DNA from: Pseudomonas baetica
GTDB taxonomy: Bacteria; Pseudomonadota; Gammaproteobacteria; Pseudomonadales; Pseudomonadaceae
Length of the DNA stretch: 64,000 bases
Reading direction: 5' to 3'
NCBI RefSeq assembly: GCF_002813455.1
Contig: NZ_PHHE01000001.1
Location: 4,019,001 to 4,083,000 of the forward strand
The notes under the pieces are model-generated. The model did not search any database. It saw only the letters and a program-made list of their open reading frames with translations, and had not been told where the DNA came from. This document shows positions 19,552 through 32,740 of this stretch, one piece after another. The position numbers and the translations under genes were made by a program. Within the stretch, counting starts at the first letter, position 1. The number at the start of each line of letters is the position of its first letter.

Positions 19552-21501
19552 ATGTTGAACACCCTTCTTCCAATCCTGTTGTTCGCCGCCCTGGGCCTTG
19601 GTGTCCTCGGCGCGTTGCGGCGGGTAGCGATGTGGCGCCGGGGCCGGGCCTCGAAGGTCGATCTGATCGGCGGCCTGTTCGCCATGCCCAAGCGCTACAT
19701 GGTCGACTTGCACCATGTGGTGGCGCGGGACAAATACATCGCCAACACCCACGTGGCCACGGCCGGCGGCGCGGTGGCGTCGATTGTGCTGGCGATTCTG
19801 GTGCACGGTTTCGGCCTGCATAACCGCATCCTCGGTTACGCCTTGCTGCTGATGACAACCGTGATGTTCGTCGGTGCGATCTTTGTTTACCTGCGTCGGC
19901 GCAACCCGCCGGCACGGTTGTCGAAAGGCCCGTGGATGCGCTTGCCGAAAAGCCTGCTGGCGTTCTCGGCGTCGTACTTTCTGGTGACCTTGCCGGTGGC
20001 CGGAATCCTTCCGGAAAACTTCGGCGGCTGGATACTGGCGGTGATTCTCGGCGTCGGTGTGCTGTGGGGTGTGTCGGAGTTGTTCTTCGGCATGACCTGG
20101 GGCGGGCCGATGAAGCACGCCTTTGCCGGTGCCCTGCACCTGGCCTGGCACCGTCGCGCCGAACGTTTTGGTGGCGGTCGTTCCTCCGGTTTGAAACCGC
20201 TGGATCTCAACGATCCCTCCGCGCCGCTAGGCGTGGAAAAACCCAAGGATTTCACCTGGAACCAGTTGCTCGGTTTCGACGCTTGCGTGCAGTGCGGCAA
20301 GTGCGAAGCGGCGTGCCCGGCCTTCGCTGCCGGCCAGCCGCTGAACCCGAAGAAACTGATTCAGGACATGGTCGTCGGCCTCGCTGGCGGCACCGATGCC
20401 AGCTTCGCCGGTAGTCCCTATCCGGGCAAGCCTGTGGGCGAACACAGCGGCAATCCGCATCAACCGATCGTCAACGGTCTGGTCGATGCCGAAACCCTGT
20501 GGTCGTGCACCACGTGCCGCGCTTGCGTCGAGGAGTGCCCGATGATGATCGAGCATGTCGACGCCATCGTCGACATGCGCCGTCACCTCACGCTGGAAAA
20601 AGGCTCGACGCCGAACAAGGGCGCCGAAGTCCTGGAAAATCTTATCGCCACCGACAACCCCGGCGGTTTCGCCCCGGGCGGGCGGATGAACTGGGCGGCG
20701 GATTTGAACCTCAATCTGCTCAGCGAAAAGAAATCCACCGACGTGCTGTTCTGGGTCGGCGACGGCGCTTTCGACATGCGCAACCAACGCACCCTGCGTG
20801 CGTTCGTCAAAGTGCTGAAAGCAGCGAAAATCGACTTCGCTGTGTTGGGCCTGGAAGAGCGCGACAGCGGAGACGTTGCTCGTCGTCTGGGTGATGAAGC
20901 CACCTTCCAGTTGCTCGCCAAACGCAACATCCAGACCTTGGCCAAATACAGTTTCAACCGCATCGTCACCTGCGATCCACACAGTTTCCATGTGCTGAAA
21001 AACGAATACGGCGCGTTCGATGGCAACTACCTGGTGCAGCACCACAGCACTTACATGGCGGAAATCATCCAGGCCGGCGCGCTCAACCTCGGTCAGCACA
21101 AAGGCAACAGCGTGACCTATCACGATCCGTGCTACCTCGGCCGCTACAACGGTGAGTACGAGGCGCCGCGTGAAGTGCTGCGTGCGCTGGGTATCGAAGT
21201 CAAAGAGATGCAACGTTCGGGCTTTCGTTCGCGCTGCTGCGGCGGCGGTGGCGGGGCGCCGATCACCGACATTCCGGGTAAACAGCGAATTCCTGATATG
21301 CGCATGGAAGACATCCGCGAAACCGGTGCCGAACTGGTGGCCGTGGGTTGTCCACAATGCACGGCGATGCTCGAAGGCGTGGTTGAACCACGTCCGCTGA
21401 TCAAGGACATCGCCGAACTGGTGGCCGACGCGCTGCTAGAAGACGCCGCACCAGGCAAGCCGACTATGCCGGCCAAACGTGAACCTGCGGAGGCCCACTG
21501 A
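19552..21501 (+). CDS. dgcB: Membrane iron-sulfur subunit DgcB
   Basis: This 649-residue partner of DgcA has several N-terminal transmembrane segments. Two 4Fe-4S ferredoxin motifs follow (CVQCGKCEAACP and CTTCRACVEECP), then a C-terminal heterodisulfide-reductase-like CCG region (DPCYLGRYN and SRCCGGGGG). It should pass electrons from dimethylglycine oxidation to the membrane chain. I chose the ATG at 19552 with GGAG upstream. Its stop codon overlaps the start of the next gene by one base. Confidence 0.92.
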   Translation: MLNTLLPILLFAALGLGVLGALRRVAMWRRGRASKVDLIGGLFAMPKRYMVDLHHVVARDKYIANTHVATAGGAVASIVLAILVHGFGLHNRILGYALLLMTTVMFVGAIFVYLRRRNPPARLSKGPWMRLPKSLLAFSASYFLVTLPVAGILPENFGGWILAVILGVGVLWGVSELFFGMTWGGPMKHAFAGALHLAWHRRAERFGGGRSSGLKPLDLNDPSAPLGVEKPKDFTWNQLLGFDACVQCGKCEAACPAFAAGQPLNPKKLIQDMVVGLAGGTDASFAGSPYPGKPVGEHSGNPHQPIVNGLVDAETLWSCTTCRACVEECPMMIEHVDAIVDMRRHLTLEKGSTPNKGAEVLENLIATDNPGGFAPGGRMNWAADLNLNLLSEKKSTDVLFWVGDGAFDMRNQRTLRAFVKVLKAAKIDFAVLGLEERDSGDVARRLGDEATFQLLAKRNIQTLAKYSFNRIVTCDPHSFHVLKNEYGAFDGNYLVQHHSTYMAEIIQAGALNLGQHKGNSVTYHDPCYLGRYNGEYEAPREVLRALGIEVKEMQRSGFRSRCCGGGGGAPITDIPGKQRIPDMRMEDIRETGAELVAVGCPQCTAMLEGVVEPRPLIKDIAELVADALLEDAAPGKPTMPAKREPAEAH

Positions 21502-22721
21502 TGAGCGACATTATCCGCCGTGACCCGCGCGCCGAATGGATTGCCCGCAACCGTCTGCATCCGCTGCACGCGGCCATGCAACCGGCGCAACACAGCTGGA
21601 TGGGGCCCAACGGCGTCATCCGCAAGAACCTGCACGGCATCGGTTTCATTGGCCCCAACGGCCTCAAACGCATTGACCGCAGCGGCGCGCAGCAGGGTGG
21701 GGCGGTCAAACGCTCGGCCACGGTTGAAGTGCAACTGCCGTTGCATCAGGTGCCGGCCCCGGCGTTCTACATCAACGTGGTGCCGGACATGGTCGGCGGC
21801 CGCTTGAGCAGCCACGACCGCGACTTGCTCGGCCTCGCGCATCAACTGGCCGGCAAGGACGGCGCGGTGTTGGCCGTGGTCTTCGGCGAGCACAAGGAAA
21901 ACGCCTTCGCCACCGCAGGCGTCGATCGCTTGCTGGTGCTGGAGGGCGAAGCATTCAGCGGTTATGCACCGGAGCAACGCGTGCAAGGTTTGCGCGCTGT
22001 GGATAACCAGTTCAGTCCACGTCACTGGCTGCTGCCGGACAGCCGCAGCGGTGGCGGTGAACTGGGTCGGCGCTTTGCTGCGGCATTGGGCGAGCGCCCG
22101 GCGACCCGCGTGTGGCAGGTCAAGGATCAGGAGTGCATCGGCCGCGCTGGCGCGGGCCTGCAGGATTTGGCCCGTCCGGTTGCGCGGTTGATTCTGGCCT
22201 CGGCCGAATGTGCGGAACCTGTCAGTGAAACCCGTCACGAAGCGCTGCCCGTGGAGTTATCCACAAGTGTCGCGCGCAGCTTGTCGCGGATCGAAGATCT
22301 CGGTGCAGTGGCCGTCGATCCGGCAGCGATTCCGATGGCCGAGGCCGAGTTCATCTTCTCCGGCGGCAACGGCGTCAAGGACTGGGCGCTGTTCCACCAG
22401 ACTGCCGCCGCATTGGGCGCCACCGAAGGCGCCTCGCGGGTGGCGGTGGACGATGGCTTCATGGCGCGTGATCGGCAGGTCGGCGCGTCCGGCACCTGGG
22501 TCACCGCGCGGGTGTATGTCGCGGTGGGTATTTCCGGGGCGATCCAGCATCTGCAAGGCATTGGAGCGTGCGACAAGGTGGTGGCGATCAACCTCGATCC
22601 GGGTTGCGACATGATCAAACGCGCCGACCTGTCGGTGATCGGCGAGAGCGCGGAGATTCTTCAAGCCTTGATCGCGGCGGTTGAGGCTTACCGCAACGAC
22701 GCCAAGCGCGATGCGGCTTAA
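21501..22721 (+). CDS. Electron transfer flavoprotein alpha subunit (dgc-linked)
   Basis: This 406-residue ETF alpha subunit has the C-terminal FAD-binding segment VYVAVGISGAIQHLQGI and a typical final region (NLDPGCDMIKRADLSVIG). It overlaps dgcB by one base and is followed nine bases later by the beta subunit, so the pair is dedicated to the dimethylglycine demethylase. It is longer than housekeeping EtfA and diverged at the N-terminus. Two perfect DnaA-box sequences fall inside the gene (21998, 22258). Confidence 0.9.
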   Translation: MSDIIRRDPRAEWIARNRLHPLHAAMQPAQHSWMGPNGVIRKNLHGIGFIGPNGLKRIDRSGAQQGGAVKRSATVEVQLPLHQVPAPAFYINVVPDMVGGRLSSHDRDLLGLAHQLAGKDGAVLAVVFGEHKENAFATAGVDRLLVLEGEAFSGYAPEQRVQGLRAVDNQFSPRHWLLPDSRSGGGELGRRFAAALGERPATRVWQVKDQECIGRAGAGLQDLARPVARLILASAECAEPVSETRHEALPVELSTSVARSLSRIEDLGAVAVDPAAIPMAEAEFIFSGGNGVKDWALFHQTAAALGATEGASRVAVDDGFMARDRQVGASGTWVTARVYVAVGISGAIQHLQGIGACDKVVAINLDPGCDMIKRADLSVIGESAEILQALIAAVEAYRNDAKRDAA

Positions 22722-22730
22722 GGAACGGCT

Positions 22731-23501
22731 ATGAACACAAAAATCATCACTTTGGTTTCAATCGGCGCCCACCCGACCTCCGGCCGGCCACGTCGCGCCG
22801 AACAGGACGCACGCGCCGTGGAGCTGGGCCTGCAACTGGCTGGGGATAACCTGCAAGTGCTGCACGCCGGGGATGTTGCCGAGCCCGCATTGCGCGCCTA
22901 TCTGGGCATGGGGCTGGAGCAGATGCATGTGCTGGAGCAACCGGCGGGCGCAGATGCATTGCCGGCGCTGACCGCGTATCTACGTGATGCCGGTGCGCAG
23001 GTGGTGCTGACCGGTAGCCAGGCGGAAACCGGTGAAGGCTCGGGGATGTTGCCGTTTCTGCTGGCCGAAGGGTTGGGCTGGCCGCTGGTGGTCGGGTTGG
23101 CCCAGGTCGAGTCGATCAATGACGGTTCGGCGCTGGTGCTGCAAGCGTTGCCGCGCGGGCAGCGGCGGCGGTTGAGGGTGAAGTTGCCGTTTCTGGCGAC
23201 TGTGGATAACGCAGCTCCCAAGCCTCGGCAGAGTGCTTATGGGCCGGCACGTCGCGGCGTGCTGAATGCCGAAGATGTGCAAGTGCTGGACGATGAATTG
23301 CTCGCAGTAGCGACATTGCAACCGGCCAAGCCTCGGCCGAAACGCTTGAAAGTGATCAAGGCCAAAAGTGGTGCTGACCGGATGAAGGCAGCTACGGCCA
23401 AGGCCAGTGGCGGTGGCGGGCAAGTGCTCAAGGGCGTTTCCGCACAGGCCGGCGCTGAAGCGATTCTCAAACTGCTGATCGAAGAAGGCGTCGTCCGTTA
23501 G
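22731..23501 (+). CDS. Electron transfer flavoprotein beta subunit (dgc-linked)
   Basis: This 256-residue ETF beta-like protein has VSIGAHPTSGRPRRAEQDARAV at its start and the ETF-type segment VLTGSQAETGEGSGMLPFLLAEGLG. It pairs with the alpha subunit just upstream to accept electrons from DgcA/DgcB. It ends the operon; a REPIN follows. A perfect DnaA-box sequence lies at 23201-23209 inside the gene. Confidence 0.88.
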   Translation: MNTKIITLVSIGAHPTSGRPRRAEQDARAVELGLQLAGDNLQVLHAGDVAEPALRAYLGMGLEQMHVLEQPAGADALPALTAYLRDAGAQVVLTGSQAETGEGSGMLPFLLAEGLGWPLVVGLAQVESINDGSALVLQALPRGQRRRLRVKLPFLATVDNAAPKPRQSAYGPARRGVLNAEDVQVLDDELLAVATLQPAKPRPKRLKVIKAKSGADRMKAATAKASGGGGQVLKGVSAQAGAEAILKLLIEEGVVR

Positions 23502-23530: not shown

Positions 23531-23619
23531 GTGGGAGCGAGCCTGCTCGCGAAGGCGGACTGTCAATTGATACATGTGTCGACTGATCTAACGCCTTCGC
23601 GAGCAGGCTCGCTCCCACA
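23531..23619. repeat. REPIN, GAGCCTGCTC subtype
   Basis: Inverted REP pair directly after the ETF beta gene and before the DnaA-box array. Confidence 0.9.
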
Positions 23620-23667
23620 TTGGAATTCATTCACAGCCAATTTACACACAATCCCTGTTGGTCAGTC

Positions 23668-23676
23668 TGTGGATAA
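23668..23676 (-). promoter_or_regulatory. Perfect DnaA box (unit 1)
   Basis: TGTGGATAA on the plus strand, which is TTATCCACA on the minus strand. Confidence 0.75.
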
Positions 23677-23817
23677 CGTGTTCGCGCTTCACTGCAAGTC
23701 ACGTCAACCGTGGCTTGCAGGCCTCAGATCAAAAAACAACCAGCCTAAGTCGCGGTTTTTCCTGGCTTTTCTCCTTGGGTAACTACACAAGTTGCCCCCA
23801 ATCTCTGTTGGCGCTTC

Positions 23818-23826
23818 TGTGGATAA
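23818..23826 (-). promoter_or_regulatory. Perfect DnaA box (unit 2)
   Basis: TGTGGATAA, 150 bases after the unit 1 box, same orientation. Confidence 0.75.
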
Positions 23827-24000
23827 GATGTTCGCTATACGCTGCGAGCCTTATAAAACATGGCTTGTATGGGTTTGATTAAAAAACGATCAAATACCCT
23901 TCGCAGGCCTGCGAACCTCTCTCCAGCCCACGTTTTTTCAGACCCTGCAGCGCTTTTCCACAGAACCGCAAAACTTACCCCCGTTCTCTGTTGGCGCTTC

Positions 24001-24009
24001 TGTGGATAA
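24001..24009 (-). promoter_or_regulatory. Perfect DnaA box (unit 3)
   Basis: TGTGGATAA, 183 bases after the unit 2 box. A one-mismatch box TTTTCCACA lies at 23954, and another, TCTGGATAA, at 24097. Confidence 0.75.
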
Positions 24010-24182
24010 GGTGTTCGCCATCCTCTGCAAGCCACGCAGAGCGGGCGATACAGACTGTTGATCAAATAGTGATCGATCGTTTGTGCAAACCCTGCTTCTG
24101 GATAAGTCACGCTTTTTCTTCACAAATCAGCGAGTTGCTTTCTCGCTCATCCACAGTTACCCCCATTTGCTGTGGGTGGCTA

Positions 24183-24191
24183 TGTGGATAA
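24183..24191 (-). promoter_or_regulatory. Perfect DnaA box (unit 4)
   Basis: TGTGGATAA, 182 bases after the unit 3 box. A one-mismatch box TCATCCACA lies at 24147 in the opposite orientation. Confidence 0.75.
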
Positions 24192-24328
24192 CTTGTTCGT
24201 CGAACCCTGCAAGCCCCGCCGGCCATAGTCCAAATGGCAATTGATCACATTTCATACAGTTCTAAGCGACTGCCTTGACTTCGATTCCGGCGCTGTCTTC
24301 ACTGCAATGGCACAAGGACAGCCGTCAC

Positions 24329-24337
24329 TTATCCACA
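24329..24337 (+). promoter_or_regulatory. Perfect DnaA box, inverted, outside the repeat units
   Basis: TTATCCACA on the plus strand, opposite to the four boxes in the array, about 240 bases before the start of the GMC oxidoreductase gene. Confidence 0.7.
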
Positions 24338-24569: not shown

Positions 24570-27500
24570 ATGACACGGATCGCAACGCCCATCAGCGAGA
24601 TCAAGGAACACTACGACGTCATCGTCATTGGTTCAGGCTACGGCGGCGGTATTGCTGCCTCGCGCCTGTCCCGTGCCGGCAAACGTGTGTGCCTGCTCGA
24701 ACGCGGTCGGGAAATCCAGCCCGGCGAATACCCCAACACCATGATTGCCGCCACCGAAGAATTGCAGGTGCATGACCCCGACGGTCATATCGGCTCGCGC
24801 ACCGGGTTGTTCGACCTGCATGTCAACGCTCAGCAAAACGTCGTGGTCGGTTGCGGCCTCGGCGGTACTTCGCTGATCAACGCCAACGTGGCCCTGGAGC
24901 CGGAGCCCGGCGTGTTCGATGATCCGCGCTGGCCGCAGGCAGTGCGTGAACACCGCGACACCTTGCTCAAGGATGGTTATGCCCGTGCCCGGGAAATGCT
25001 CAAGCCCAATCCTTATCCGGACACTTCACCCAATCTGCCCAAGCTCGACGCCAACAAAAAGTCCGCGGAGTACCTCAAGCAAGGCGCGCACTTCTACAAG
25101 CCGCCGATCAACGTCACCTTCGACAAACTGCCCAATAACCTCAACCACGTCGGCGTCGAACAACTGCCATGCAACCACTGTGGCGACTGCGTGTCGGGCT
25201 GTAACAACAAGGCCAAGAACACCACGCTGATGAACTATCTGCCGGACGCCTGGAACCACGGCGCGGAGATTTTCTGTCAGGCCCAAGTGCGGCATCTGGA
25301 GCGTGACGGTGACGGCTGGATTGTGCACTTCCAGTATCTGGACAGCGGTCGCGAGAAGTTTTCCGCGCCGACGCTGTTTGTGAAGGCCGACATCGTCGTG
25401 GTGTCCGCCGGCACGCTGGGCTCCACGGAAGTTCTGCTGCGCTCGCGCGACAAAGGGCTGGTGATGTCCGGCCAGCTCGGCGAAAACATGAGCGGCAACG
25501 GTGACATTCTCGGTTTCGGTCACAACTGCGAGCAGACCATCAACGGCATCGGTTTCGGCGCGCACCCGGCCAAGGAACTGCACCCGGTCGGCCCCTGCAT
25601 CACCTCGGTCATCGACATGCGCACCGAAGGCGATTGGCGCAGTCGCATGGTCATCGAAGAAGGCTCGATCCCCGGCGCCCTTGGCCGGCCGATGGTGCCA
25701 AGCATGGCCGGCTTCGCCGAGATGCTCGGTGTGGCCACCGACGACAGCTTCAGCGGCAAGGTGAAATACAAGGAACGCGAGGCCGAAAGTTTTCTGCGCG
25801 GCCCGTATTACGGCGCGCTGCACAACATGCAGACCTACCTGATCATGAGTCACGACAGCGGCCAGGGGCGGATGGTCCTGGATAACAAGGATCAGTTGCG
25901 CATCGACTGGCCGGGCGTCGGCGAGCAAGAGAACTTCAAGCTCGGCAATGACCGCCTGCACCAGAGCACCAAGGCGCTCGGTGGCGTCTGGGTGGAAAAT
26001 CCGATCTGGACCAAACTGCTCAAGCACAGCATCGTCTCGGTGCATCCATTGGGCGGTTGCGTAATGGGCGAGGACGCCGGGCAAGGCGTGGTCAATCACA
26101 AGGGCCAGGTGTTCAGCGGCGCTGCCGGCACCGATGTCTACGCCAATCTGTACGTGACCGACGGCGCGGTGATTCCGACGTCGCTGGCGGTCAATCCGCT
26201 GCTGACCATTTCCGCCGTGAGCGAGCGCAACATGGGCCTGCTCGCCGCCGACCGGGGCTGGCAGATCGACTTCACCCTGACCATCACCGCCAACGACCTC
26301 AACCGCATGATCAAGGAACCCGAGCACGCGGCGACCATCGTTGGCACTGTCATCGCCCCAGCGCTGTCACCGCAGTCGCTGACTGCGAGCAACGGCGTGT
26401 TCAACCTGTTCGAACAATTCGAGCAACAGGTCGATACGCGCCACATGAAGTACGACATGAAACTGACCGCCGAGGACGGCAGCGACTATTTCTTCAGCGC
26501 CTTCAAAACCGTGCCGGAAGACAACGGCGTGCTGAACATCTGGCACGACACCAGCACCCTCTACGTGACGCTGTATCGCGGGCCGGACAAGTCTGGCGAG
26601 GTGATCGGCTCCGGGGTGATGCACATCCATCCGACCGACTTCGCCAAACAGATGACCACCATGAAAGTGCTCAACGCGCGTAACGAGCGTGAGCGCATTG
26701 AAGGGCTGGCACGCTTTGGCAAGTTCTTCGCCGGGATTCTCTGGGAGAGTTATGGCGGGGTGTTTGCCGGGGATATCTACTTCAATCCCGACGCGCCGCC
26801 ACGGTTGAAACGGCCACTGGACGCGCCAACCCCGGCGGTGCATTTCTTCCCCACCGAGGATGGCGTCGAACTGCGCCTGACGCGTTATCAGGCGGGGACC
26901 AAAGGCCCGGTGATGCTGGTGCATGGTTTGGGCGTGGGCTCGAACATTTTCTCCACCGACACCATCCAGACCAACCTGCTCGAATACCTGTGCAAGCACG
27001 ACTACGACGTCTGGCTGCTGGACTTCCGGGTGAGCATTCTGCTGCCGGCGAGCAAGAAGGAGTGGAACGGCGACCAGATCGCCCAGTACGACTTCAAGGC
27101 AGCCATCGCGCAGATTCAGCAGCAAACCGGCGCCAAAGACGTGCAGTGCGTCGTGCATTGCTACGGCGCGACCACCTTCTTCATGTCGCTGCTGGCCGGG
27201 TTGCAGGGGGTGCGCTCGGTGGTCTGCTCGCAGATTGCCGCCGATACCGTGGTCGCCACCGCAACGGGGTTGAAGGCCGGGCTGCACCTGCCGGGCATGC
27301 TCGACGCCATCGGCATCAAGTCGATGACGGCCTACGCCGACAGCAAGGAAAACTGGTTCAACAAACTCTACGACAAAGCCCTCAACGGCTACGCGCGGAT
27401 CGAAGCCCAGGGCTATTGCACCAACCCGGTGTGCCACCGCATCACCTTCATGTACGCCTCGCTGTATCGTCACGACACCCTCAATGAAACCCTGCACGAC

Positions 27501-27848
27501 AACCTGCACGAGTTGTTCGGCGAGTCGAATATCGAGACCTTCGAGCATCTGGCGCTGATCGTGCGCAAAGGGCATCTGGTGGATTTCAAAGGCAACGATG
27601 TGTACATGCCACACTTTGACCGGCTGACCATGCCGATCTGCTTTATCAGCGGCGCCGACAACCAGTGTTATCTGCCGGAAAGCACCCTCAAGACCTACCA
27701 GCGTTTGTGCGATATGCACGGGCCACAGCGTTACAGCCGGCAGGTGGTGCCGGGTTACGGCCACATCGACTGCATGTTCGGCAAGAACGCGGTGGTCGAT
27801 GTCTATCCGATCATCCTTGAACACCTGGAGAAAACCGCCCTCGGTTGA
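24570..27848 (+). CDS. GMC oxidoreductase fused to an alpha/beta hydrolase
   Basis: This 1092-residue protein has two enzymes in one chain. The N-terminal half is an FAD-dependent GMC/cholesterol-oxidase-like oxidoreductase with the dinucleotide motif IGSGYGGG (residues 20-27) and a C-x2-C-x3-C cluster (CNHCGDCVSGC). The C-terminal part from about residue 757 is an alpha/beta hydrolase with VHGLGVGSN. Its nucleophile elbow reads VHCYG with Cys864 in the serine position; Asp1030 (GADNQ) and His1065 (GYGHID) complete a possible triad. There is no signal peptide. It heads a rightward set with a di-haem cytochrome and a metallophosphoesterase. The substrate is unknown; a sterol-like or lipid alcohol/ester is a guess. 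Confidence 0.85.
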   Translation: MTRIATPISEIKEHYDVIVIGSGYGGGIAASRLSRAGKRVCLLERGREIQPGEYPNTMIAATEELQVHDPDGHIGSRTGLFDLHVNAQQNVVVGCGLGGTSLINANVALEPEPGVFDDPRWPQAVREHRDTLLKDGYARAREMLKPNPYPDTSPNLPKLDANKKSAEYLKQGAHFYKPPINVTFDKLPNNLNHVGVEQLPCNHCGDCVSGCNNKAKNTTLMNYLPDAWNHGAEIFCQAQVRHLERDGDGWIVHFQYLDSGREKFSAPTLFVKADIVVVSAGTLGSTEVLLRSRDKGLVMSGQLGENMSGNGDILGFGHNCEQTINGIGFGAHPAKELHPVGPCITSVIDMRTEGDWRSRMVIEEGSIPGALGRPMVPSMAGFAEMLGVATDDSFSGKVKYKEREAESFLRGPYYGALHNMQTYLIMSHDSGQGRMVLDNKDQLRIDWPGVGEQENFKLGNDRLHQSTKALGGVWVENPIWTKLLKHSIVSVHPLGGCVMGEDAGQGVVNHKGQVFSGAAGTDVYANLYVTDGAVIPTSLAVNPLLTISAVSERNMGLLAADRGWQIDFTLTITANDLNRMIKEPEHAATIVGTVIAPALSPQSLTASNGVFNLFEQFEQQVDTRHMKYDMKLTAEDGSDYFFSAFKTVPEDNGVLNIWHDTSTLYVTLYRGPDKSGEVIGSGVMHIHPTDFAKQMTTMKVLNARNERERIEGLARFGKFFAGILWESYGGVFAGDIYFNPDAPPRLKRPLDAPTPAVHFFPTEDGVELRLTRYQAGTKGPVMLVHGLGVGSNIFSTDTIQTNLLEYLCKHDYDVWLLDFRVSILLPASKKEWNGDQIAQYDFKAAIAQIQQQTGAKDVQCVVHCYGATTFFMSLLAGLQGVRSVVCSQIAADTVVATATGLKAGLHLPGMLDAIGIKSMTAYADSKENWFNKLYDKALNGYARIEAQGYCTNPVCHRITFMYASLYRHDTLNETLHDNLHELFGESNIETFEHLALIVRKGHLVDFKGNDVYMPHFDRLTMPICFISGADNQCYLPESTLKTYQRLCDMHGPQRYSRQVVPGYGHIDCMFGKNAVVDVYPIILEHLEKTALG

Positions 27849-27868
27849 CTTGAGACCGAGTCGCCCCG

Positions 27869-27961
27869 TTCGCGAGCAAGCCCGCTCCCACAGGGTTTTG
27901 TGTCAGGCACAAAATCAGGGGGAATCCCCAATCCATTGTGGGAGCGGGCTTGCTCGCGAAA
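27869..27961. repeat. REPIN, GGGCTTGCTC subtype
   Basis: Inverted REP pair between the GMC fusion gene and the cytochrome gene. Confidence 0.9.
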
Positions 27962-28012
27962 GCGGTAGGTCAGGCACTACATCTCTTGGGTCTGCACAAG
28001 GAAATGGATGAC

Positions 28013-29881
28013 ATGGACACCTACATCCGCTGGTTTCAACGCTTCATCTGGCTAGGCATTGCAATGAACATGGTGTTCGCGATCCCCGCGCTGTTTGCGC
28101 CGGGTTTGCTGACATCGGTGGTCGGCTTGCCGCCGCAACTCTCCGATCCATGGCTGGAAAACGCCGGGATGCTGCTGGTCGGCATCAGCGTGTTCTACAT
28201 GCCGTCAGGCTTCAACGCGCCGCGCTACGTGGTGCATTCCTGGCTGTGCGTACTGACGCGGTTGATCGCCGTGGTGTTCTGGATCTACCTGATCAACACC
28301 AGCAATCAAGGCTCGGTGTTCGTCCCGATGTTGCTGGGCGATCTGAGCTTTTTCCTGATTCTCGGCATTCTGCTGTACCTCGGTACCACGCCGCAGAACC
28401 GGCCATGGGCCTTGCTCTGTGATGGTTGGCGCGAGTGGCGCGCCGCGTGGGCGCGGCAATGGCAGAGTCACACCTTCAAGGTCGGCGCCTTGATCGTGGT
28501 CGCGGTGCTCGGTTTTATCGGTTACCAAACCTGGTATCAGATGCTCCGCGTCGTGCCTGAACAGCAGTACGCTTCCGACGAAGACCACTACAAATACGCT
28601 GCCATCGGCCTCGGGATCGAAGCGCGAATCCCCTATTACCTGTTCGCCGTATTGCCACAGATGTGCCCGGAAAAACTGCCAAAACCCGGCGGCTGGGAAG
28701 TCTTCGGTTTCCTCTTTGAGAACGGCAAGGACCTGCCGATCGGCATGGCCAAGCGGCAGATAGGTTACCCGACGGTGGAGCCGAACTGCGCGCTGTGCCA
28801 CACCGGCTCCTACCGGGCCAACGCCAGCGACGTCGCGGTCAACGTGCCGAGTGCGCCGGCCAACACCCTGCAACTGCAAGCCTTCCAGTGGTTCGCCTAC
28901 GATTGCGCCAGCGATCCGAAATTCACCACCGACGCGGTGATGGCGGCGATCAACGGCAAGTTTCAGTTGGGGTTTTTCGAGAAGCTCTACAACCGCTACC
29001 TGATCATGCCGATGGCCAAGAGCGCACTGCTCAAGCAGAAACAGGCCTACGCCTGGCAAAAGCTGCGACCGCAACAGGGACCTGGGCGCACGGACACCTT
29101 CAACCCGACGAAAATGGTGGTGTTCGGCTTCCCGGATGACTCGACCATCGGCACCGTCGATCTGCCGCAAGTCTGGAACCAGAAACCGCGCGAATCGATG
29201 TACCTGCACTGGGACGGCAATAACAACAAGATTCACGAGCGCAACTACGCCGCCGCGATGGCTGTCGGTGCGACGCCCGAATCGGTGCTGCCGCCAAGCT
29301 TCAACCGGGTGACCAACTGGCTGCTCGGGCACAAGCCACCGGCCTGGCCGTGGACGCTGGATCAGGCCAAGGTCGCGCAGGGCAAACCGATCTGGGACAA
29401 CAACTGCGCCGGTTGTCATGACTTCGGTCGTGCCGATACCGGGCAGGTCACCACCAACATCGACCAGCTCGGCACCGATCCGCATCGGCTGGACTCGTTC
29501 ACCACCGGTCTGGTGACTGCGTTTCACACTTTCAAGAAGCCGCCCTTCGACTTCGGCGCCTACCGCAAGACCCAGAGCTACAGCAACACGCCAACCGACG
29601 GCATCTGGCTGCGCGCACCGTACCTGCACAACGGCTCGGTGCCGACGCTATGGGACTTGCTGCAACCGCCGGAAAAACGTCCGCAGGTGTTCGTCACCGG
29701 CTCCGACGTCTACGACCCGGTCAATGTCGGGTTTGTCACCCGCGGCGCGCAAGCCAAAGCCTCGGCCGACTTCAAATACGACACCCGGCTGGAGGGCAAC
29801 CACAACACCGGTCACTTGTATGGCACGCAGCTGTCGGACGCCGACAAGCGTGCGCTGATCGAATTCATGAAAACCCTGTGA
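28013..29881 (+). CDS. Membrane-anchored di-haem c-type cytochrome (RoxA/peroxidase-like)
   Basis: This 622-residue protein has an N-terminal membrane domain of about four helices (residues 1-130) and another helix near 165. An exported domain follows with two haem c motifs, CALCH (259-263) and CAGCH (465-469). The segment APYLHNGSVPTLWDLL is typical of RoxA-like and di-haem peroxidase-like proteins. I chose the ATG at 28013, with AAGGA ten bases upstream, because frames starting earlier translate REPIN sequence. It could take electrons from the GMC oxidoreductase, or oxidise a substrate itself. Confidence 0.83.
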   Translation: MDTYIRWFQRFIWLGIAMNMVFAIPALFAPGLLTSVVGLPPQLSDPWLENAGMLLVGISVFYMPSGFNAPRYVVHSWLCVLTRLIAVVFWIYLINTSNQGSVFVPMLLGDLSFFLILGILLYLGTTPQNRPWALLCDGWREWRAAWARQWQSHTFKVGALIVVAVLGFIGYQTWYQMLRVVPEQQYASDEDHYKYAAIGLGIEARIPYYLFAVLPQMCPEKLPKPGGWEVFGFLFENGKDLPIGMAKRQIGYPTVEPNCALCHTGSYRANASDVAVNVPSAPANTLQLQAFQWFAYDCASDPKFTTDAVMAAINGKFQLGFFEKLYNRYLIMPMAKSALLKQKQAYAWQKLRPQQGPGRTDTFNPTKMVVFGFPDDSTIGTVDLPQVWNQKPRESMYLHWDGNNNKIHERNYAAAMAVGATPESVLPPSFNRVTNWLLGHKPPAWPWTLDQAKVAQGKPIWDNNCAGCHDFGRADTGQVTTNIDQLGTDPHRLDSFTTGLVTAFHTFKKPPFDFGAYRKTQSYSNTPTDGIWLRAPYLHNGSVPTLWDLLQPPEKRPQVFVTGSDVYDPVNVGFVTRGAQAKASADFKYDTRLEGNHNTGHLYGTQLSDADKRALIEFMKTL

Positions 29882-31249: not shown

Positions 31250-32545
31250 TTAGCCCTGAACCGGCACGCCTTTGAGGTAAGGCGCAGGCTCGGCGCCGAG
31301 GTTGTTCAGCATCCGCTCGCTGTACCAATCCACAAAGTTGACCACACCAAACTCATAAGTCTTCGAGTACGGCCCAGGCTGGTACGCCGTGGAGTTGATC
31401 CCGCGCTGGTTCTCTTCGGCCAGACGACGATCCTGATCGTTGGTCGCGTCCCACACCTGGCGCATGCGGTCGACGTCGTAATCCACGCCTTCCACCGCAT
31501 CCTTGTGCACCAGCCACTTGGTGGTGACCATGGTTTCCTGGGCGCTGATCGGCCACACGGTGAAGACGATGATGTGGTCGCCCATGCAGTGGTTCCACGA
31601 GTGCGGCAGGTGCAGGATGCGCATCGAACCGAGGTCCGGGTTCTTGATCCGGCCCATCAGTTTGGCGCAGCCCTGTTTGCCGTCGAGGGTCATCGACACG
31701 GTGCCCTTGAGCAGCGGCATACGCACGATGCGGTTACGCAGGCCGAAACTGGCGTGGGCGTAAGGGATCTTCTCGGCTTCCCAGGCAGCGGCGGAGGCGG
31801 CGACGTGATCCTTGAACGCCTGATCGGCGCGCGGGTCGGTGACGTCGTCCCATTCCAGCAAGGTTTTCAGCAGTTCCGGGTGCGACGCGTTGCAGTGGTA
31901 GCACTCGCGGTTGTTTTCCAGCACCAGTTTCCAGTTGGCCTTTTCCATCAAGGTGGTGGTAATCGCCACCTTGGTGTTCTCCATGTCGTACGGTTCCATG
32001 TAATGGTTCAGCGTCGACAGGAAGTCATCGATGGCCGGCGGGTTCTCGGCCAGGCTGATGAAGATGTAGCCGCCGGCAGTCTTCACGTTCACCGGTTTCA
32101 GGCCGTACTGCTTCATGTCGAAGTCGGCGCCCATCTCGGTGCCGGCGAACAGCAGGCGGCCATCCAGCTCATACGTCCACTGATGGTAATGGCAGACCAG
32201 TTTGGCGACCTTGCCCTTGTCGCTGGTGCACAGGCGCGAGCCACGGTGGCGGCAGACGTTGTGGAACGCATGGACGACGCCGTCGGCGCCACGAATGACG
32301 ATGATCGGGTTCTTGCCGATCTGCAGGGTGATGTAGTTGCCCTTGGCCGGGATCTCGCAGGTCATGCCGGCGATCAACCACTCTTTCTGGAAGATCTCCT
32401 GCATGTCGATATCGAACAGCCGCTCGTCGCTGTAGAACGGTTGCGGCAGCGAGAAGGTGCGCTCACGTTCCTGCAGCATCTGTGCGGTGGCCTTGCGTGC
32501 GGGTTCCAGCGGATCGCCCAGGCTGATTTTTGCGGTGACGTCCAT
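31250..32545 (-). CDS. gbcA: Glycine betaine monooxygenase oxygenase subunit GbcA
   Basis: This is a Rieske non-haem iron oxygenase that demethylates glycine betaine to dimethylglycine, releasing formaldehyde. The 431-residue protein has the Rieske ligands CRHRG and CHYHQW, and the mononuclear iron histidines in ENNRECYHCNASHPELL. I chose the ATG at 32545 with AGGATC upstream. It diverges from gbcB, which encodes its reductase. Confidence 0.94.
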   Translation of the reverse strand: MDVTAKISLGDPLEPARKATAQMLQERERTFSLPQPFYSDERLFDIDMQEIFQKEWLIAGMTCEIPAKGNYITLQIGKNPIIVIRGADGVVHAFHNVCRHRGSRLCTSDKGKVAKLVCHYHQWTYELDGRLLFAGTEMGADFDMKQYGLKPVNVKTAGGYIFISLAENPPAIDDFLSTLNHYMEPYDMENTKVAITTTLMEKANWKLVLENNRECYHCNASHPELLKTLLEWDDVTDPRADQAFKDHVAASAAAWEAEKIPYAHASFGLRNRIVRMPLLKGTVSMTLDGKQGCAKLMGRIKNPDLGSMRILHLPHSWNHCMGDHIIVFTVWPISAQETMVTTKWLVHKDAVEGVDYDVDRMRQVWDATNDQDRRLAEENQRGINSTAYQPGPYSKTYEFGVVNFVDWYSERMLNNLGAEPAPYLKGVPVQG

Positions 32546-32740
32546 CGATGTGATCCTCATGGCCATCTGCGTGGCCGGCGAAAGTGGCTAATCAGGTGTG
32601 CTGTAAACGGTTGCTACGCAAGGTGTAAAGAATTCGTCTTGGTGTGAGGCGAGTGTGGGGCCGGCGCAGGCGGGAACCTTATCCATGGGCGACATGGTGC
32701 AATCTGTTCCCGACGCGCAACCCCCGGTGGTTGGGGGCTG

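Follow-up and report, generated by a model that had tools for sequence, protein, structure and literature searches.

How a Pseudomonas cell limits chromosome replication to one round per cycle is, to our knowledge, poorly understood. Downstream of the electron transfer flavoprotein genes of Pseudomonas baetica, an array of DnaA boxes raises the question of whether this genus carries a site outside oriC that acts on DnaA. A first-pass annotation proposed that the array titrates DnaA in the manner of datA of Escherichia coli. We analysed the array within a 64,000-nucleotide stretch of the chromosome (the window) and in related genomes; the nearest named relatives by etfB are P. fluorescens, P. 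koreensis and others, at 97% identity.

Modules of the array and their conservation

The array contains four perfect DnaA boxes (TGTGGATAA) in one direction with steps of 150, 183 and 182 bases, an inverted fifth perfect box and three one-mismatch boxes, all as the first-pass annotation had placed them (Table 1). Box matches at no more than one mismatch number 27 in the window, against a mean of 5.89 and a maximum of 14 in shuffled sequence. Moreover, we found three further perfect boxes just upstream that the annotation had not listed, at 21998 and 22257 in etfA and at 23201 in etfB. The four strong boxes cover about 0.55 kb, and with the three coding-sequence boxes the array extends over 2.3 kb in all.

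Each strong box is embedded in a module with the outline degenerate inverted site, CTGTTGG or CTGTGGG, perfect box and TGTTCG. The perfect box starts 12 bp after the TGTTGG of the module, and TGTTCG starts 11 bp after the box start. The annotation had described these flanks as conserved throughout, which holds for TGTTCG after all four boxes; CTGTTGG precedes three copies and is replaced by CTGTGGG before the fourth, and the longer flank CTGCAAGCC is exact in copies 3 and 4 and in no other copy. In a relative (L126), three of its four modules have TTGCCCACA as the degenerate inverted site, which is more decayed in the window. The TGT motifs flanking the boxes may be weak DnaA contacts. The modules resemble the reference copy at 66-83% over 70 nt and thus probably arose by duplication. 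In the 70 four-module arrays all four cores, which were sought on one strand, share that strand.

Table 1. Features of the array and its neighbourhood, in window positions (except the first row).
Feature	Position	Strand	Remarks
Window	G000:C1:4019001-4083000		part of a 6,902,809-bp single-contig genome
etfA, electron transfer flavoprotein alpha	21501-22721	+	NF051845, 711.6 bits (cut-off 600); hosts two boxes
Perfect box TGTGGATAA in etfA	21998-22006	+	codons GCT GTG GAT AAC; perfect in 79/81
Perfect box in etfA	22257-22265	-	TTATCCACA on + strand; codons TTA TCC ACA; perfect in 79/81
etfB, electron transfer flavoprotein beta	22731-23501	+	NF051844, 411.4 bits (cut-off 350); hosts one box
Perfect box in etfB	23201-23209	+	perfect in 64/81, weakest of the three coding boxes
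Module 1	23641-23684	+	TTTACACACA-N4-CTGTTGG-N6-TGTGGATAA-N2-TGTTCG; box 23668-23676
Module 2, 30-bp core	23805-23834	+	box 23818-23826
One-mismatch box TTTTCCACA, inverted	23954-23962	-	47 bp upstream of box 3; conserved
Module 3, 30-bp core	23988-24017	+	box 24001-24009
Weak box TCTGGATAA	24097-24105	+	between boxes 3 and 4 (96 and 86 bp)
Weak inverted box TCATCCACA	24147-24155	-	poorly conserved
Module 4, 30-bp core	24170-24199	+	CTGTGGG variant; box 24183-24191
Fifth perfect box, inverted, accessory	24329-24337	-	linked to GMC gene insertion
GMC oxidoreductase / alpha-beta hydrolase gene	24570-27848	+	between array and gbcA in the window's lineage
gbcA, glycine betaine monooxygenase	31253-32602	-	NF058607, 809 bits

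A search of the window found no tRNA and, at the gathering score, no Rfam family. Between etfB and the array lies an ungapped inverted repeat (23531-23618; arms of 44 nt, 82% complementary), which we take to resemble a Pseudomonas REP element.

Of 80 loci from other Pseudomonas, the close etfB relatives retained from 399, 74 show three or more modules in the 5 kb that follow etfB. Four of the remaining six lie on contigs that end less than 1 kb from etfB, one has a single module and one has none. The first-pass annotation had proposed aligning the intergenic region across Pseudomonas, and the alignment (69 of 81 rows, those with four modules in step and enough flank) bore out the array: the four boxes, in module order, are perfect in 68, 67, 69 and 68 of the 69 arrays. 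The spacers have a mean majority frequency of 0.72, and the 5' flank of module 2 has a mean conservation of 0.98. Of the weaker sites, TTTTCCACA is conserved in 68 of the 69 aligned arrays and stands 47 bp before box 3 in 67 of 70 loci (57 bp in two, not found in one). TCTGGATAA is exact in 41 of the 69; a site resembling it keeps the 96/86-bp placement in 61 of 70 loci, lies at 96 bp with small differences in six others and has no match in three. TCATCCACA is exact in 29 of the 69.

Across the genus, 161 of 199 sampled genomes have a module at no more than three mismatches, the reversed pattern matches none, and 138 have at least three modules on one strand by hand count. The other 38 gave no match to this whole-genome pattern, which undercounts (G023 shows one match, against three cores at its etfB locus), so some of these 38 genomes may hold diverged arrays. 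In a family sample of 148 genomes, at least three modules in register were found only in genus g1 and in one genome of another genus (G326, g9). The named loci and the genomes may include the same species twice, so these counts are not independent.

In one array-less genome (G003), inspection by eye of all 80 perfect boxes revealed no cluster of equal density except four boxes at 1448807-1449077, which mirror the spacing of the G000 origin and presumably mark its oriC. The absence of both array and substitute indicates that the site is dispensable in related lineages. Two array-less relatives (L142 and L139) have a single box resembling the module at this intergenic position, which may represent the array at an early or a decayed stage; L142 has two perfect boxes 194 bp apart.

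The boxes inside etfA extend this conservation to codons. The rare TTA leucine codon that completes the box at 22257 is kept in 80 of 81 etfA sequences, and this one site holds 80 of the 94 TTA codons found across 33 conserved leucine columns of etfA; the ACA codon of the same box is present in all 81. By comparison, mean codon identity to the window is 0.65 across 231 conserved degenerate etfA columns. The box at 21998 lies at -1503 relative to the etfB stop in the window and in L125, and at -1510 in L126. We additionally searched 30 genomes, one of them a g9 genome that has the array and the others from lineages that are distant or lack it; etfB was present in 20. Two of these 20 loci (L125 and L126) have at least three modules together with all three coding boxes. 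In the other 18, where the sequence extends roughly 1.5 kb beyond etfB, the coding regions contain no perfect box, no more than two perfect boxes stand in the 1.5 kb downstream, and the whole-genome module pattern counts these loci as array-less. Array and coding boxes therefore go together in this sample (coding boxes in 2/2 loci with the array, 0/18 without). The conserved TTA codon suggests that replication control has shaped a coding sequence.

Helical phasing of the box-to-box steps

The distances between modules are more constrained than the spacer sequence. In 123 arrays, 350 module-to-module steps take only lengths of 127-128, 149-151, 160-162, 171-173, 181-184 and 192-193 bases. These lengths are about one helical turn apart, with a best-fitting period of 10.75 bases and a resultant of 0.96; when each distinct length was counted once, none of 20,000 random draws matched this phase. 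The sample includes the module places of 48 genomes from the matches listed, with single-place genomes left out and G000 counted as the window; it excludes G192 and G277, whose places are 363 and 414 apart, and the stray extra matches of G125, G139, G019 and G084. One 127-base step (L084) comes from an extra weak core. The analysis covered steps of 100-215 bases; outside this range fall the displaced fourth module of L054 and a 217-base step of G130, which is a poor fit to the phase rule.

Because lengths that differ by a single base are not independent of each other, we take as the unit of evidence the six classes and the changes between them. On a tree of the 70 four-module loci we counted seven class changes in total: step 1 switched between 150 and 161 at least five times and step 2 between 182 and 193 at least twice; step 3 did not switch. 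Exact lengths changed 10, 12 and 5 times in steps 1-3, and changes of 1-2 bases within a class were more frequent. Moreover, compensating gaps were needed in 272 of 630, 1321 of 1540 and 1665 of 2080 pairs of equal-length steps (steps 1-3), counts that depend on uncertain alignments (median identity 0.72-0.78); this suggests that length is held while the sequence drifts. Phase-locked spacing is the usual mark of proteins that touch across a DNA loop, and the helical-turn rule bears on how DnaA could assemble over widely spaced boxes.

Genomic background, position and neighbours

The first-pass annotation had assumed about one perfect box per 130 kb, which underestimates the background: 156 perfect TGTGGATAA boxes (81+75) occur in the genome, against 22 for a reversed control. 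Other genomes gave 80 against 11 (G003), 90 against 10 (G206) and 102 against 10 (G225). The following densities and jitter runs use 152 of the 156 boxes, four positions being missing. Within 1.5 Mb of oriC lie 138 of the 152; the density per Mb is 310 within 50 kb of oriC, 47-48 between 50 kb and 1 Mb, 17 between 1 and 1.5 Mb, 0.5 between 1.5 and 2.5 Mb, and 6.8 at greater distances. Because DnaA boxes are enriched around oriC generally, part of the density of the array is background. Nevertheless, the comparison with the rest of the genome that the annotation had proposed singles the cluster out: among these 152 positions it is the densest, with five perfect boxes in 700 bp (four at oriC), and its locus has eight in 2.5 kb (five at oriC). 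When the 152 boxes were jittered by up to 50 kb, at least five in 700 bp occurred in 3 of 5000 runs, as did at least eight in 2.5 kb.

The annotation had held that a dispersed repeat would speak against titration. This is ruled out: the 30-bp module has four copies in the cluster and a single match elsewhere in the genome, with three mismatches, at C1:3522120 inside a GntR/aminotransferase regulator gene. The coding sequence of this MocR-type regulator has three perfect and two one-mismatch DnaA boxes, several of them 12 bp apart, where it encodes an LST-rich linker (G000:C1:3522128-3522230; L119 at about 2629-2731), and a 30-mer from it also occurs in G019 and G084. At G000:C1:2561312-2561747 there are three perfect boxes in about 435 bp, one of them followed by CCGTTCATGG and faintly module-like.

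The annotation also placed the array near oriC, from the locus numbers of the P. aeruginosa orthologues, and the distances to dnaA in the genomes analysed here agree with such a position. In G000, dnaA lies at C1:3421668-3423167, about 620 kb from the array. In 13 genomes the distance is 357-620 kb, or 6.2-9.0% of genome length (lengths rounded to 0.1 Mb, except for G000), a conserved relative distance of the kind used as a criterion for datA. These are 13 of the 16 genomes searched for dnaA; G197 and G052 were left out for their contig structure, and so was G101, in which dnaA and the array fall on separate contigs. Relative to dnaA the array can be on one side or the other, yet it has the same orientation to the replication fork in 13 of 13 genomes. 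Both the position near oriC and the fork orientation may follow from conserved gene order alone.

The nearest typed upstream gene, which is etfB, a GNAT acetyltransferase gene, an aspartyl-protease-like gene or one unassigned gene, is transcribed towards the array in all 75 loci. On the other side, the 3' end of gbcA faces the array within 500 bp in 41 of the 75 loci and converges on it from further off in three more, so that the array is flanked by converging gene ends in more than half of the loci. In 29 loci, among them the window, the first gene downstream encodes a GMC oxidoreductase, and neither gbcA nor the GMC gene was found beside the array in two of the 75. In the window, genes for a GMC oxidoreductase/hydrolase fusion and a di-haem cytochrome c peroxidase (24570-29881) stand between array and gbcA. 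Across loci, between 67 and 4130 bp separate etfB from the first box.

The inverted fifth box, which the first-pass annotation had counted with the others, is perfect and lies where it was reported, outside the conserved core: of the 29 GMC loci 28 have it, against one of the 46 others, so it belongs to the GMC insertion. The sole non-GMC locus with this box is L054, where TTATCCACA follows 146 bp after the displaced fourth module.

A probable datA-like site and its alternatives

That the array is a selected, oriC-proximal DnaA-box cluster appears well supported by the sequence comparisons, and in this respect the titration idea of the first-pass annotation stands; sequence alone does not separate titration from DnaA-ATP hydrolysis, reactivation or an architectural role. 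We consider it probable that the array is a datA-like site that sequesters or inactivates DnaA and thereby holds back re-initiation. ATP-DnaA would bind the four strong same-direction boxes and spread onto the flanking weak sites. With helical phase kept, the DnaA complexes would keep a fixed face and could touch across short DNA loops, and these contacts would create one cooperative assembly holding many DnaA molecules. Lying 0.36-0.62 Mb from dnaA and oriC, the array would double soon after initiation, and the doubled array would soak up, and perhaps inactivate, DnaA when re-initiation must be blocked. What we observe are the sites, the conservation of boxes and helical phase, the position and the converging gene ends; that DnaA binds there, forms loops and restrains initiation is inferred. 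SeqA was not found in G000 by a search that found the E. coli control. An Hda-like protein is probably encoded at C1:661839 (83.7 bits to the DnaA model).

Published systems are cited here from the excerpts available to us. TTATCCACA is listed as the high-affinity box of P. putida (PMC4285127). The essential boxes of E. coli datA share one directionality (PMC5742627), and its binding sites and their spacing are conserved (PMC4585315). datA lies at 94.7 min and oriC at 84.6 min, about a tenth of the chromosome apart (PMC5742627). Our array likewise is a DnaA-box cluster outside oriC, with its strong boxes in one direction by sequence and at a similar relative distance. In contrast, minimal datA, 183 bp long, contains boxes 2, 3 and 7 and a single IHF site, IHF is needed, and IHF looping would bring together DnaA at boxes 2 and 3 (PMC5742627); the array has steps of 150-183 bp over about 0.55 kb and three coding boxes, and we claim no homology.

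The IHF consensus was taken as WATCAANNNNTTR. We found no conserved match to it in the array: the best position is shared by 12 of 69 arrays, a single exact match occurs in the 69, and matches at no more than one mismatch average 0.84 per array, against 0.59 after shuffling. With no conserved IHF consensus between its strong boxes, the array is best described as working like datA and not filed as datA. The phased spacing may replace the IHF looping of datA.

DnaA-box clusters of Bacillus subtilis and Streptomyces coelicolor have been called datA analogues (PMC5742627, PMC4585315), and removal of six such clusters in B. subtilis leads to early initiation (PMC5295017). Like these, the array is a cluster separate from the origin and situated in the origin-proximal part of the chromosome; unlike them, it is a single conspicuous locus whose module is repeated and whose spacing is phase-locked.

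The alternatives were weighed against the same observations. The array could be a chromosome-architecture site, in which DnaA, alone or together with a partner, would join the phased modules in a fixed loop for nucleoid folding or origin segregation and have little effect on initiation. Helical phasing and the fixed fork orientation suit such a structural role as well as they suit titration. However, seven to eight perfect boxes are explained more simply by a device acting at the level of DnaA, and no architectural site of this type that relies on DnaA alone is known to us; we regard this explanation as unlikely.

The location of the cluster outside oriC and its conserved weak boxes would also suit a DARS-like site, on which ADP-DnaA assembles, loses ADP and is recharged. 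Indeed, DARS1 and DARS2 of E. coli are non-coding clusters with conserved spacing, as is the array. The DARS elements have a conserved core of three DnaA boxes, and DARS2 also has IHF and Fis sites (PMC4245941, PMC5742627). The strong boxes of the array are instead 150-183 bp apart, with weak boxes at 47, 86 and 96 bp, inspection of the box spacing revealed no tight three-box core, and the IHF site of DARS2 has no conserved consensus counterpart here. We regard reactivation as improbable.

DnaA is a transcription factor, and a bound array might serve as an operator or roadblock that controls read-through from etfAB, or gbcA or the GMC gene. The upstream gene points at the array in every locus, so read-through could be blocked, and the fifth box stands upstream of the GMC gene in nearly all loci that have this gene. 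At E. coli datA, moreover, DnaA and IHF affect read-through transcription (PMC10950094). Against this, the 41 arrays between closely converging genes have no gene start nearby to serve, two conserved boxes lie within etfA, and the upstream neighbour changes. Both the varied etfB distance and the varied neighbours speak against an operator for one particular promoter, and control of a downstream gene is unlikely in general; we give transcriptional control little credence.

Five perfect boxes in 0.7 kb amount to an oriC-like density, which might suggest a second or relic origin or the remnant of an integrated replicon, and two autonomously replicating elements have been reported from P. aeruginosa (PMC4403523). 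The array shares its box with the G000 oriC between dnaA and rpmH, which has four perfect boxes in 273 bp, and the 13-bp spacing of the TGTGAATAA/TGTGGATAA pair there is close to the 12 bp from TGTTGG to TGTGGATAA in the module. Unlike that origin, the array is far from dnaA, none of its six typed neighbouring genes is a replication gene, no stretch is strongly AT-rich (lowest 60-bp GC 0.417) and there is no clear GC-skew switch. The lack of an AT-rich element and of a clear skew switch led us to reject a secondary origin, and the broader idea of an origin or replicon remnant is very improbable. As for a plasmid origin, two plasmid records each matched 9% of the query (27-124 and 28-120), which is the upstream REP-like repeat and not the array. 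Least credible is a chance cluster in a box-rich region or a tandem duplication carried along: enrichment near oriC and the likeness of the modules would favour it, but as a sole explanation it is unlikely in view of boxes that stay invariant while spacers diverge, conserved etfA codons and phase-locked spacing.

Taken together, a datA-like sink for DnaA remains our preferred reading. A DnaA-box cluster outside oriC is a known kind of site; the phased compound modules and the coding-sequence boxes set this array apart within that kind, apparently as a variant not described before. Within the excerpts of open-licence literature that we searched, most subscription papers being outside this scope, no datA-like or titration site in Pseudomonas was described, and in the excerpts of two Pseudomonas genome papers TTATCCACA appears solely in connection with oriC (PMC3056050, PMC3596284). 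We tentatively propose that the array represents a new class of Pseudomonas DnaA-control site, an apparently IHF-independent phased loop array that stores or inactivates DnaA and combines compound modules with boxes in etfA codons. The compound module of this class might then be defined, just as provisionally, as inverted weak site, TGTKGG, strong box and TGTTCG. A single conserved locus with exact sites, spacing rules and natural relatives that are array-less offers a direct experimental target. If the proposal is true, such an array would help to explain how initiation is kept to once per cycle in bacteria without SeqA.
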